Positions 32,480-34,576 of a stretch of DNA of 37,514 nt are shown one piece after another (position 1 is the stretch's first letter; every line of letters begins with the position of its first letter). The position numbers were made by a program, and so were the translations under genes. Source of the DNA: Alphaproteobacteria bacterium (GTDB taxonomy: Bacteria > Pseudomonadota > Alphaproteobacteria > Micavibrionales > Micavibrionaceae). The stretch lies in the NCBI GenBank assembly GCA_018608245.1, contig JABAZY010000051.1, positions 14,624 to 52,137 of the forward strand, read 5' to 3'. The notes under the pieces are model-generated. The model had not been told where the DNA came from and did not search any database. It saw only the letters and a program-made list of their open reading frames with translations.

Positions 32480-32797
32480 ATGAGCCACCCAGTTATAATA
32501 ATTGTTACCGTACCAACAGAAGACATTTCCGAGAAAATTTCTCGTGATATTGTTGAAAAAAATCTAGCCGCAGGCATACAAATTAGTAATGTCAAAAGCA
32601 TTTATAAATGGGATGGTCAAATCAATGAGCGTATTGAATATGTTTTGAACATCAAAACCATGAACCATCATTTCAACGCCATAGAAAAAATTATTGATGA
32701 TCTTCACCCTTATGAAGTACCGCCCATTGAGCAAATAAAAATTGAAAAGGGTAAAGATAGTTATTTAAAGTGGGTCGAAGATAACACTAAACTTTAA
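32480..32797 (+). CDS. cutA: CutA-like divalent cation tolerance protein
   Basis: The 105-aa protein has the CutA pattern: an N-terminal strand IIIVTVPTEDISEKISRDIV, NLAAGIQISNVKSIYKWDG, a central NIKTMNHHFNAIEKIID and the conserved HPYEVPPIEQIKIEKG. CutA forms a PII-like trimer; its physiological role is unclear. It is downstream of the UDG gene by 8 bp. Its last 4 bp overlap the convergent leuA. Confidence 0.92.
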   Translation: MSHPVIIIVTVPTEDISEKISRDIVEKNLAAGIQISNVKSIYKWDGQINERIEYVLNIKTMNHHFNAIEKIIDDLHPYEVPPIEQIKIEKGKDSYLKWVEDNTKL

Positions 32798-34359
32798 TCA
32801 TCCGCAGGCTTAGATTTCTGACGTTTTGTTATCAATTTATTTAGCGCATGAACATAAGCACGAGCGGAGGATACAAGCGTATCTTTATCTGCTCCCTGCC
32901 CCGTCACGGTCTTACCATCTTCTTCTAAACGCACGGTCACTTCCGCTTGTGCGTCTGTACCACCTGTTACGGCATGTACTTGGTATAGCTGAAGCTTTGC
33001 ACCTTCATGTGGAATAATCTCACGGATACATTTAAAGATTGCATCAACCGATCCGTTTCCTTCTACTTTTGCAGATTGCTCTTCACCTTCAACAATCAGA
33101 GTCATCTCTGCTGTTTGTGGACCTTCAGTACCCGCCACGATTTGTAGTGATTTAAATTTGATATGATCATGATCACGACCGACTTCATCGTCTACAAGTG
33201 CAATTAAATCATCATCAAAAATTTCTTTTTTCTTATCTGCCAAATCTTTAAAGCGTTTAAAGAAGTCTTGGAACGCATTATCACCAATATCATAGCCAAG
33301 CTCTTTAATTTTTTCTTTTAACGCATGACGACCAGAATGTTTACCCAACACCAATTCTGATTTTGTAAGACCCACTGATTCAGGAGTCATAATTTCATAA
33401 GTTTGCGCATTTTTTAACATACCATCTTGATGAATACCGCTCTCATGGGCAAACGCATTCGCGCCTACAATCGCTTTGTTCGGCTGTACATTAAATCCAA
33501 CCGTCGTTGATAACATCTTCGACGCGCGCGTTAGCATTTCAGTTTTTATATTATTGTGAAACGGTGCTTTATCATTACGTGTCCGAATGGCCATCACAAT
33601 TTCTTCCAGCGCCGCATTACCTGCACGCTCGCCGATACCATTAATAGTACATTCAATCTGACGCGCCCCAGCTTGAATACCTGCCAAGCTATTTGCTACT
33701 GCTAACCCCAAGTCATTGTGGCAATGAACAGACAAAATCGCTTTATCAATATTTGGCACGCGATTCATTAACATAGTTATTTGCGCCGCATATTCTTCTG
33801 GCACCGCATAGCCGACCGTATCTGGAATATTAATCGTTGTTGCACCACATTTAATCGCAGTCTCAACACACTGACAAAGGAAGTCATCTTCCGTACGGCT
33901 ACCATCTTCCGCAGACCATTCCACATCATCAGTAAAACTACGCGCAAATGTGACGCTCTCGGCAACTGCTTCCAAAACAGTCTCTGGCGACATTTGTAAC
34001 TTATGCTTCATATGAAGCGGTGATGTTGAGATAAAGGTATGAATACGGCTTTGATGCGCAGGCTTAAGCGCTGTCGCTGACGCTTCAATATCTTTCTTGG
34101 TTGCACGAGACAAGCCACACACCACAGAATTAGTTAGAACTTTCGCAATCTCATTGACCGCTTCCCAGTCCCCCTGAGAAGCAATAGGAAATCCAGCTTC
34201 AATTACATCGACTCCCATTTCATCAAGAAAACGAGCTATCTTTAATTTTTCGTCCAAATTCATGGAACAACCAGGAGATTGCTCTCCATCACGAAGGGTC
34301 GTATCAAATATAATGACACGATTATTGGGATCTTGTTGATCAGTATTTGTAGAAGACAT
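32794..34359 (-). CDS. leuA: 2-isopropylmalate synthase
   Basis: LeuA condenses acetyl-CoA with 2-oxoisovalerate, the first committed step of leucine synthesis. The 521-aa protein has the N-terminal FDTTLRDGEQSPGCSMN, EAGFPIAS, the metal-binding SVHCHNDLGLAVANSLAG, TINGIGERAGNAALEE, and the C-terminal LeuA regulatory domain (about 390-510) that binds leucine. Length is normal for the LeuA type 1 form. AGGA lies 7 nt before the ATG. A 182-nt region upstream holds a leucine-rich leader peptide and two hairpins, so expression is likely controlled by leucyl-tRNA supply as well as by feedback. Confidence 0.96.
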   Translation of the reverse strand: MSSTNTDQQDPNNRVIIFDTTLRDGEQSPGCSMNLDEKLKIARFLDEMGVDVIEAGFPIASQGDWEAVNEIAKVLTNSVVCGLSRATKKDIEASATALKPAHQSRIHTFISTSPLHMKHKLQMSPETVLEAVAESVTFARSFTDDVEWSAEDGSRTEDDFLCQCVETAIKCGATTINIPDTVGYAVPEEYAAQITMLMNRVPNIDKAILSVHCHNDLGLAVANSLAGIQAGARQIECTINGIGERAGNAALEEIVMAIRTRNDKAPFHNNIKTEMLTRASKMLSTTVGFNVQPNKAIVGANAFAHESGIHQDGMLKNAQTYEIMTPESVGLTKSELVLGKHSGRHALKEKIKELGYDIGDNAFQDFFKRFKDLADKKKEIFDDDLIALVDDEVGRDHDHIKFKSLQIVAGTEGPQTAEMTLIVEGEEQSAKVEGNGSVDAIFKCIREIIPHEGAKLQLYQVHAVTGGTDAQAEVTVRLEEDGKTVTGQGADKDTLVSSARAYVHALNKLITKRQKSKPADD

Positions 34360-34380
34360 TTTTCTTTCCTTATTCGTTTT

Positions 34381-34407
34381 GCCTCAGGTGGGTAAACCCA
34401 CTACGGC
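34381..34407 (-). promoter_or_regulatory. leuA leader hairpin 2
   Basis: On the minus strand GTGGG-TTTA-CCCAC forms a tight stem, extended by GCC/GGC at the base across an internal loop. It ends about 20 nt before leuA's ATG. No T run follows, so it is not a canonical intrinsic terminator. Confidence 0.55.
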
Positions 34408-34444
34408 TATATCAATTCAGTTTATGTTTATTTCATGATTGAAA

Positions 34445-34492
34445 CCCCTGAACGTAGACGCATATACTTGCGCCTCATGCCCGTTCAGAGGG
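34445..34492 (-). promoter_or_regulatory. leuA leader hairpin 1 (anti- or pre-terminator)
   Basis: On the minus strand CTGAACG (with flanking CCC) pairs with CGTTCAG (with flanking GGG), and inside it AGGCGCA pairs with TGCGTCT around AGTATA. The left arm includes the last codons and stop of the leader peptide. A competing pairing exists between the CGCCCTC of the peptide's final codons and GAGGCG in the stem, so ribosome position could switch the fold. Confidence 0.6.
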
Positions 34493-34541
34493 CGATAAGG
34501 AGGTTTAGGAGCAGTAAGTTTCTAATCGAAATTTGTTGCAT
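34485..34541 (-). CDS. leuL: Leucine-rich leader peptide (leuL-like), 18 aa
   Basis: The ORF runs from ATG 34541 to TGA 34485 and encodes MQQISIRNLLLLNLLIAL. Seven of 18 codons are Leu, four of them consecutive (TTA CTG CTC CTA), using five of the six Leu codons. It lies 125 nt before leuA on the same strand, followed by two hairpins. This is the layout of amino-acid attenuation: shortage of Leu-tRNA stalls the ribosome in the Leu run and changes downstream folding. No SD precedes the ATG, and the promoter predicts transcription starting at the A of ATG. Confidence 0.8.
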   Translation of the reverse strand: MQQISIRNLLLLNLLIAL

Positions 34542-34547
34542 AGTTTT

Positions 34548-34576
34548 TTTTAACGGATTTTAACCTAAAGAGTCAA
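34548..34576 (-). promoter_or_regulatory. leuL/leuA promoter
   Basis: On the minus strand TTGACT (34576-34571), 17 bp, TTAAAA (34553-34548), then six bases and the ATG of the leader peptide at 34541. The -35 directly follows the stop codon of the preceding gene and includes a GACTC (GANTC) site. Confidence 0.5.

Follow-up and report, generated by a model that had tools for sequence, protein, structure and literature searches.

Leader leucine codons as a putative lock on the leuA Shine-Dalgarno region in Alphaproteobacteria

Leader peptide control of amino acid genes is mostly interpreted as transcription termination, which makes leaders without a U run hard to explain. One such leader lies upstream of leuA in a 37,514-nt stretch of a 2.0-Mb alphaproteobacterial genome of the family Micavibrionaceae (contig JABAZY010000051.1, positions 14,624 to 52,137; the whole stretch is referred to here as the window), and it raises the question of how a leucine-rich reading frame could switch leuA off. 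A first-pass annotation of the sequence had left Rho, a weak terminator, and a block of leuA translation as options. Comparative data favored the translation block and spoke against a terminator, which is most likely not the off-switch to judge from the sequences compared, and they suggested a route absent from that annotation, in which the ribosome-binding site of leuA is paired with the leucine codons. The element is probably a ribosome-mediated translational attenuator whose leucine codons double as a lock on the leuA Shine-Dalgarno (SD) region.

The leader open reading frame (ORF) ends 125 nt before the leuA ATG (position 34359 of the window). Its earlier description as an 18-codon minus-strand ORF with seven leucine codons at that distance agreed with both the sequence and resampling: when the 350-nt region preceding leuA was resampled 5,000 times to first order, an ATG ORF with at least six leucine codons in eight arose twice. 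The fold of the 206-nt leader region had a z score of -3.07 relative to dinucleotide shuffles. The reported lack of a T run after either of the hairpins downstream of the leader was borne out by the window sequence, in which no U-run hairpin, a feature of classical attenuators, was found before the structural gene. Short upstream ATG ORFs with at least five leucines in eight codons were present at 35 of 82 leuA-like loci (mostly of the same order, with a few second copies and two loci with short upstream sequence), compared to 0.8% in the resampled null. Frequent leader ends were LLLLxRP* and LLLLIAL*, and LRL-type leaders contained a short leucine series only.

Two sets of leuA leaders were compared. 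Set 1 comprised 162 loci with 70 element calls, 61 of which were used after removal of spurious or weak calls (L015, L047, L067, and L134), duplicates (L084 and L086), and calls with a doubtful leuA start (L035, L112, and L126). Set 2 was drawn from a class-wide sample in which 145 of 289 genomes had a leuA match at an E value of 1e-150; 126 loci were examined, with 15 divergent, second, or broken leuA places left out. The element (at least two leucines plus a stem containing the stop codon) was called at 84 of these 126 loci, with some calls spurious and some real elements missed; seven calls were dropped (L178, L179, L195, L217, L233, L265, and L286), and removal of near duplicates reduced the remaining 77 to 65. 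The sets are not wholly independent, because L210 and L242 repeat L109 and L118. For most loci, the filter demanded pairing of five bases (the last codon and the first two bases of the stop codon), so that the stem at the leader end (stem 1) is there partly by selection, and it placed no pairing condition on the base stem (stem 2).

Stem 2 carries the proposed lock. In the minimum-energy fold of the window leader, UCCUUAUCG, within the leucine codons (S1), pairs with CGAAUAAGGA in the leuA SD region (S5). Native pairing of the two arms was compared to pairing of arms swapped among loci (20,000 permutations), a test that, like the opening cost statistics below, treats loci as independent and counts kin loci separately. 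The S1:S5 pairing gave z scores of -7.5 in set 1 and -7.9 in set 2, with no permutation as good in either; within set 1, 0 of 20,000 permutations were as good in the LRL group and 8 of 20,000 in the LLL group. For the control pairs S1:S4 and S2:S5, neither complete set showed any excess (z from -0.7 to +0.6). Other pairs had some excess in set 1 (S1:mid, -4.0; S4:S5, -3.0; mid:S5, -2.2; S2:mid, -1.5), with S2:mid at -2.9 and S2:S5 at -2.2 in its Micavibrio-order part, and the excesses of set 1 were gone in the class set (S1:mid, -0.5; S4:S5, +0.2; mid:S5, -1.2; S2:mid, +0.6). Leaders with CUU CGA CUU AGG, several of them in records named Rhodospirillales, had an SD-side partner altered to match (CACCUGAGUCGAAGGA in L116, ACGCCUAUUGUCGCAAGGA in L101, and CACCUAAGUUGAAAG in L098); stem 2 was an uninterrupted 15 bp in L116 and was also long in L098 and L100. 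Among the 126 class loci, the stems with an energy of -10 or better reached the interval from -16 to +3 in 42 of 47 LLL-type cases and 27 of 42 LRL-type cases.

The predicted cost of opening the SD and start codon in the window was 8.8 kcal/mol when the leader was free, 2.8 kcal/mol when the leucine codons were masked, and 4.0 kcal/mol when they were recoded synonymously (in both cases, the six codons preceding the last leader codon), and 1 of 40 synonymous recodings was as closed as the native sequence. Across the 126 class loci, the mean cost was 7.1 kcal/mol free, 5.2 kcal/mol with S1 masked (P = 2e-10), and 5.6 kcal/mol with S1 recoded (P = 2e-8), and masking lowered it by more than 1 kcal/mol at 73 loci. 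A simulated ribosome with its A site 4 to 9 codons before the stop codon lowered the cost by more than 1 kcal/mol in 26 to 30 of 37 leaders hand-chosen from the Micavibrio-order set, and one placed 12 codons before the stop opened the site in 12 of the 37. The positions 4 to 9 codons before the stop correspond in the window to codons 10 to 15, all but one of which encode leucine. Placing the A site at codon 9 of the window leader gave a cost of 8.8 kcal/mol, compared to 4.4 at codon 10 and 2.7 to 4.4 at every later codon up to the stop.

Stem 1, in which the leader's final sense codon and stop codon, along with the bases that follow (S2), pair with S4 and enclose an inner stem, forms hairpin 1. 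In an RNAalifold alignment of 33 chosen sequences, hairpin 1 had 15 pairs, 11 of which were changed on both sides, a number matched by 0 of 500 column shuffles and by no slid version. These 33 came from 39 candidates, with six omitted as hard to align (L020, L038, L039, L055, L073, and L078) and two added by hand, L002 and L018, the latter with TAA opposite CAGGGG. The swap z scores of stem 1 (-11.6 for the 61 loci and -10.3 for the 65 loci) are inflated because the filter required pairing there; outside the five filtered bases, the unbiased values were -5.9 and -5.0 (0 of 20,000 permutations each). Changes in stop codon type along with the partner were not counted as covariation, as pairing of those bases was demanded by the filter. 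The proposed mechanism rests on stem 2, so the revised figures for stem 1 leave it unaffected. Covariation folding of related leuA leaders thus found the leucine run and both stems conserved and the stems covarying, and the switchable RNA structure that had been proposed at the leucine-rich leader is kept in relatives.

A leaderless start, with a TTGACT-17-TTAAAA promoter placing the first transcribed base at the leader ATG, had also been proposed and is supported by the spacing in relatives. The window promoter directly follows the stop codon of the upstream gene, and because its -10 element ends 6 nt before the leader ATG, the usual distance from -10 element to transcription start, taken as standard spacing, predicts the A of that ATG as the start site. 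Of 39 leaders hand-chosen from the Micavibrio-order set, 27 had a best -35/-10 pair whose -10 element ended 6 to 7 nt ahead of the leader ATG (a count with no shuffled control for spacing), position -1 was a pyrimidine (C or T) in all 39, and an SD-like motif preceded the leader ATG in 2 and the leuA ATG in 32. The leader is very probably leaderless, with the A of its ATG as first base. A terminator-like stem with a T run on the plus strand (34511-34539) lies across the start of the leader ORF and probably reflects the opposite-strand reading of the A run that precedes the leader.

Table 1. Features of the leuA leader region, in window coordinates
Feature	Position	Strand	Description	Basis
Leader peptide ORF	34541-34485	minus	MQQISIRNLLLLNLLIAL*; 18 codons, 7 Leu codons including four in a row	
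leuA	32794..34359	minus	2-isopropylmalate synthase, 521 aa; putatively controlled gene	name by homology to annotated records
Promoter	34548..34576 (TTGACT 34576-34571; TTAAAA 34553-34548)	minus	TTGACT - 17 nt - TTAAAA	sequence
S1	34493..34501	minus	UCCUUAUCG in codons CUC CUU AUC G; base stem 5' arm, putative anti-SD	fold, swap and recoding tests
S2	34482..34491	minus	CCUCUGAACG; last leader codon and stop codon; hairpin 1 5' arm	fold, covariation
S3	34473..34478	minus	AUGAGG; might pair instead with CCUUAU of the Leu codons (34500-34495), which would free SD	alignment, swap test
Inner stem of hairpin 1	34456..34475	minus	7 bp, AGGCGCA with UGCGUCU	fold, covariation
S4	34445..34454	minus	CGUUCAGGGG; hairpin 1 3' arm	fold, covariation
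S5	34367..34376	minus	CGAAUAAGGA; leuA SD region; base stem 3' arm	fold, swap tests
Hairpin 2	34381..34407	minus	copy of 27-bp dispersed hairpin repeat	genome pattern search

Sequence comparison and computation thus support the leader, the nested stems, the promoter spacing, and the opening cost, and from these we infer the start of the transcript, the stalling, the dependence on leucine, and the direction of control. The transcript would begin at the leader AUG, where a ribosome would load without an SD. With plentiful charged leucyl-tRNA, the leader would be completed and the ribosome would depart, the region of the stop codon would then fold into hairpin 1, and the freed leucine codons (CUCCUUA in the group to which the window belongs) would pair with the leuA SD region, closing it and turning leuA off. 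Under leucine shortage, a ribosome stalled on the leucine codons would cover them and leave the leuA ribosome-binding site open. Sensor codons that double as a lock on a ribosome-binding site would offer an explicit and testable alternative for leaders without a U run.

Several observations weigh against this mechanism. The S1:S5 energy was weaker than -10 at 37 of the 126 class loci, and 15 of the 42 strong stems of LRL type, along with 5 of the 47 of LLL type, ended at least 16 nt before the start codon; at LRL loci with the stem upstream of the SD, it may have another effect, for example by blocking Rho or ribosome standby. At 53 of 126 loci, where the mechanism may be different, masking either reduced the opening cost by no more than 1 kcal/mol or raised it. 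In Phaeobacter inhibens (L338), both stems are present with the base stem upstream of the SD, and opening costs 0.6 kcal/mol free and 5.7 masked, an argument against SD hiding in this species. Simulated ribosomes at nonleucine codons after the run also opened the SD (codons 16 to 19 in the window, 2.7 to 4.4 kcal/mol), as did ribosomes at the stop codon in 21 of 37 leaders, so the sensing step hinges on the true stall sites. Mutations in the Streptomyces coelicolor leuA leader were reported as inconsistent with classical attenuation, as far as the citation of that work in PMC1262725 goes.

Rho-dependent attenuation, in which departure of the leader ribosome would let Rho load on the leader or on the stretch after hairpin 1 and a stalled ribosome or the base stem would block it, is unlikely but accommodates some of these loci. 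It helps to account for base stems that end upstream of the SD, spacers after S4 look G-poor and unstructured by eye at many loci, and fewer than five T's occur in an 8-nt window after hairpin 1 at 111 of 126 loci. It does not, however, predict covariation between leucine codons and SD or exposure of the SD upon synonymous recoding, and some spacers after S4 are as short as 33 to 42 nt (L092, L013, and L007). The same T counts bear on intrinsic termination as in enterobacterial leu, with hairpin 1 as a weak terminator and CCUUAU:AUGAGG as antiterminator, which we regard as very unlikely: at least five T's follow hairpin 1 at just 15 of the 126 loci, a scarcity on which hairpin 1 was rejected as a terminator, and a stall on the leucine codons would presumably promote hairpin 1, the wrong sense. 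The CCUUAU:AUGAGG pairing is formed in 90.9% of cells in the alignment of 33 sequences, with weak covariation, and the S1:mid excess of set 1 would fit an antiterminator, but that excess is absent from the class sample. Pairing of the final leader codons near GAGGCG, which the first-pass annotation had given as part of the switch, can therefore form but was rejected as the main switch on this loss of signal; it is possibly a local extra. Termination control may nevertheless exist nearby. At L077 and L079, of the same order and another family, a T run and the GC hairpin preceding it come after a Leu-rich leader, and leuA is apparently under ordinary terminator control, which may reflect a change in the output of the switch within the order. 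These leader-strand hairpins were called by eye, the terminator scan having missed them probably because it allowed loops of at most 8.

Least probable, to the point of being barely credible, is a TnaC-like arrest of the nascent peptide at a Pro-stop leader end, with leucine itself sensed. Most leaders found do end in Pro-stop or Leu-stop, partly through selection by the filter, but L021, L042, and L052 keep the paired CCCCUG or CCUCUG although their stop codons lie further downstream (by eye), and in Paracoccus denitrificans the end of the leader is GLLLLTLR*; RNA pairing is thus kept where Pro-stop is not. An arrest peptide was rejected since a conserved peptide end was not seen in these four leaders. 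The reading of the leucine codons as a lock on the leuA SD remains the one that we favor.

Among known systems, the enterobacterial leu attenuator also senses leucyl-tRNA through leucine codons of a leader peptide, and it differs in acting by termination at a U-run hairpin, whereas the window lacks a U run and the target there is likely to be the SD. The ermB and ermC translational attenuators resemble the proposal in that stalling of a ribosome within a leader ORF frees the SD of the gene that follows, and differ in that the stall is drug dependent; to our knowledge, their sensor codons are not the anti-SD. The element was found in no alphaproteobacterial description in the open literature searched, a search that did not extend to a 2004 survey by Vitreschak, reportedly of proteobacterial attenuators, so that an earlier description is possible. 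In Sinorhizobium meliloti, trpL (rnTrpL) is a leaderless leader ORF that opens a biosynthetic transcript, a trp attenuator with a small RNA product; as far as the trpL account in PMC10117765 extends, it resembles the window, where the leader is very probably leaderless too, in such a start in an alphaproteobacterium and differs in its small RNA product and in including no pairing of sensor codons with an SD.

Of the systems known, the nearest is the LEU element predicted before leuA in actinobacteria, in which a run of leucine codons in a leader ORF pairs with the SD of leuA and a pseudoknot was proposed; its authors thought a binding protein likelier than leader translation (Seliverstov et al. 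2005, PMC1262725). Like the window, it has a leucine-run ORF before leuA, a base stem of leucine codons and leuA SD, and no intrinsic terminator; it differs in belonging to another phylum and in the proposed pseudoknot, compared to a plain hairpin containing the stop codon here. A possible pseudoknot-like crossing partner, AUGAGG, occurs in the Micavibrio group, with the weak covariation and set-dependent S1:mid scores given above. Streptomyces lividans leuL1 (MRFGLLLLSCRGEGL*) is transcribed leaderless, as the window leader very probably is, and has no typical Rho-independent terminator, according to the portion of PMC8079986 that describes it. The same anatomy was found before a Tsukamurella plasmid leuA (L354), where the leader MTYRGHLLLLPRHGGA* has a -10-like TAGGGT 7 nt before its ATG, the S1:S5 energy is -9.3, and opening costs 8.8 free and 6.0 masked; a leucine-run leader was not seen at the Streptomyces plasmid locus L351. 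The string LLLLSC is common to some alphaproteobacterial leaders (L055 and L094) and S. lividans, which may reflect descent, transfer, or chance, and a pattern search for CTCCTTAGCTGCC...AAGGAG had no match among 354 loci. We take the window element as an alphaproteobacterial counterpart that would work like LEU, not as a proven member of it.

A covariance model built from the Micavibrio-type core had 41 matches in 40 of 115 relatives, many of them the model's own sequences; judged by coordinates, 40 of the 41 immediately preceded leuA, with the remaining match (G069:C32) at a contig end. The 289 class genomes gave 39 matches, one per genome, all of them just before leuA (compared by eye), 4 of the 39 being in the model, and in a phylum sample 12 of 299 genomes matched, all 12 of the same class (the class makeup of the 299 is not given). 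The model found the G218 and G263 loci, which the filter had missed, and L195 (G193), excluded from the counts, has by eye a long pairing of ATTCTTCGACTTAGG with CCTAAGTGACGACGAAGAAT just before leuA, indicating that the filter misses real elements. In P. denitrificans (L336), TATAGT stands 7 nt ahead of the leader ATG, the leucine codons form a long stem with the SD, and opening costs 12.5 free and 4.4 masked; in Methylobacterium bullatum (L337), a CTCCTTATCCGCCCCTGA...CTCAGGGG element is present. Searches of Rfam returned only a tRNA, and no leader family, for the whole window at gathering scores, and only a mir-598 match below the gathering score for six relatives at E values up to 1. A convincing leader was absent from Pelagibacter-named and SAG loci L121 to L125 and L127 to L163 (the L134 call being spurious).

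It is conceivable, though we hold this more tentatively than the mechanism itself and would not bet on it, that these leaders form a class-wide unnamed alphaproteobacterial RNA family, with sensor codons as anti-SD and leaderless AUG entry, and that together with LEU they represent one cross-phylum design for translational control of leuA, through shared descent, transfer, or convergence. If the proposed mechanism is true, it would explain leuA control across many alphaproteobacteria, including P. denitrificans, a laboratory species, could supply an RNA family for which the copy of Rfam searched has no match, and would give cause to revisit the LEU element, whose mechanism its authors did not settle.

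Two strong hairpins after the leader had been described, and both are present; hairpin 2, however, is a dispersed repeat and was judged to lie outside the control. Of 14 pattern matches in the window's own genome, 13 were such hairpins (in the window and 12 further places), compared to none for a reversed control pattern. The repeat consensus is approximately GCCGTAG-NNNN-YTTR-NNNN-CCTGAGGC, with an inner stem that varies but is mostly still complementary; 9 of 12 copies (10 stretches) lay outside any stop-to-stop frame of 90 codons, and clear copies were confined to the window's genus among 29 genomes searched (by eye). It occurred in 2 of 61 leuA leaders (L001 and L005) and was rejected as a part of the switch on these grounds.

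Several full-length leuA loci of the family are without a Leu leader, e.g., L024, L028, and L036. At L067 to L070 (G031, G060, G062, and G033), which likewise have no Leu leader, the LeuA match is about 395 aa long and stops close to residue 393 of the 521-aa query. The copy of the NCBI taxonomy used places Micavibrio in Bdellovibrionota, and records named Micavibrio sp. sit beside Alphaproteobacteria by LeuA similarity.
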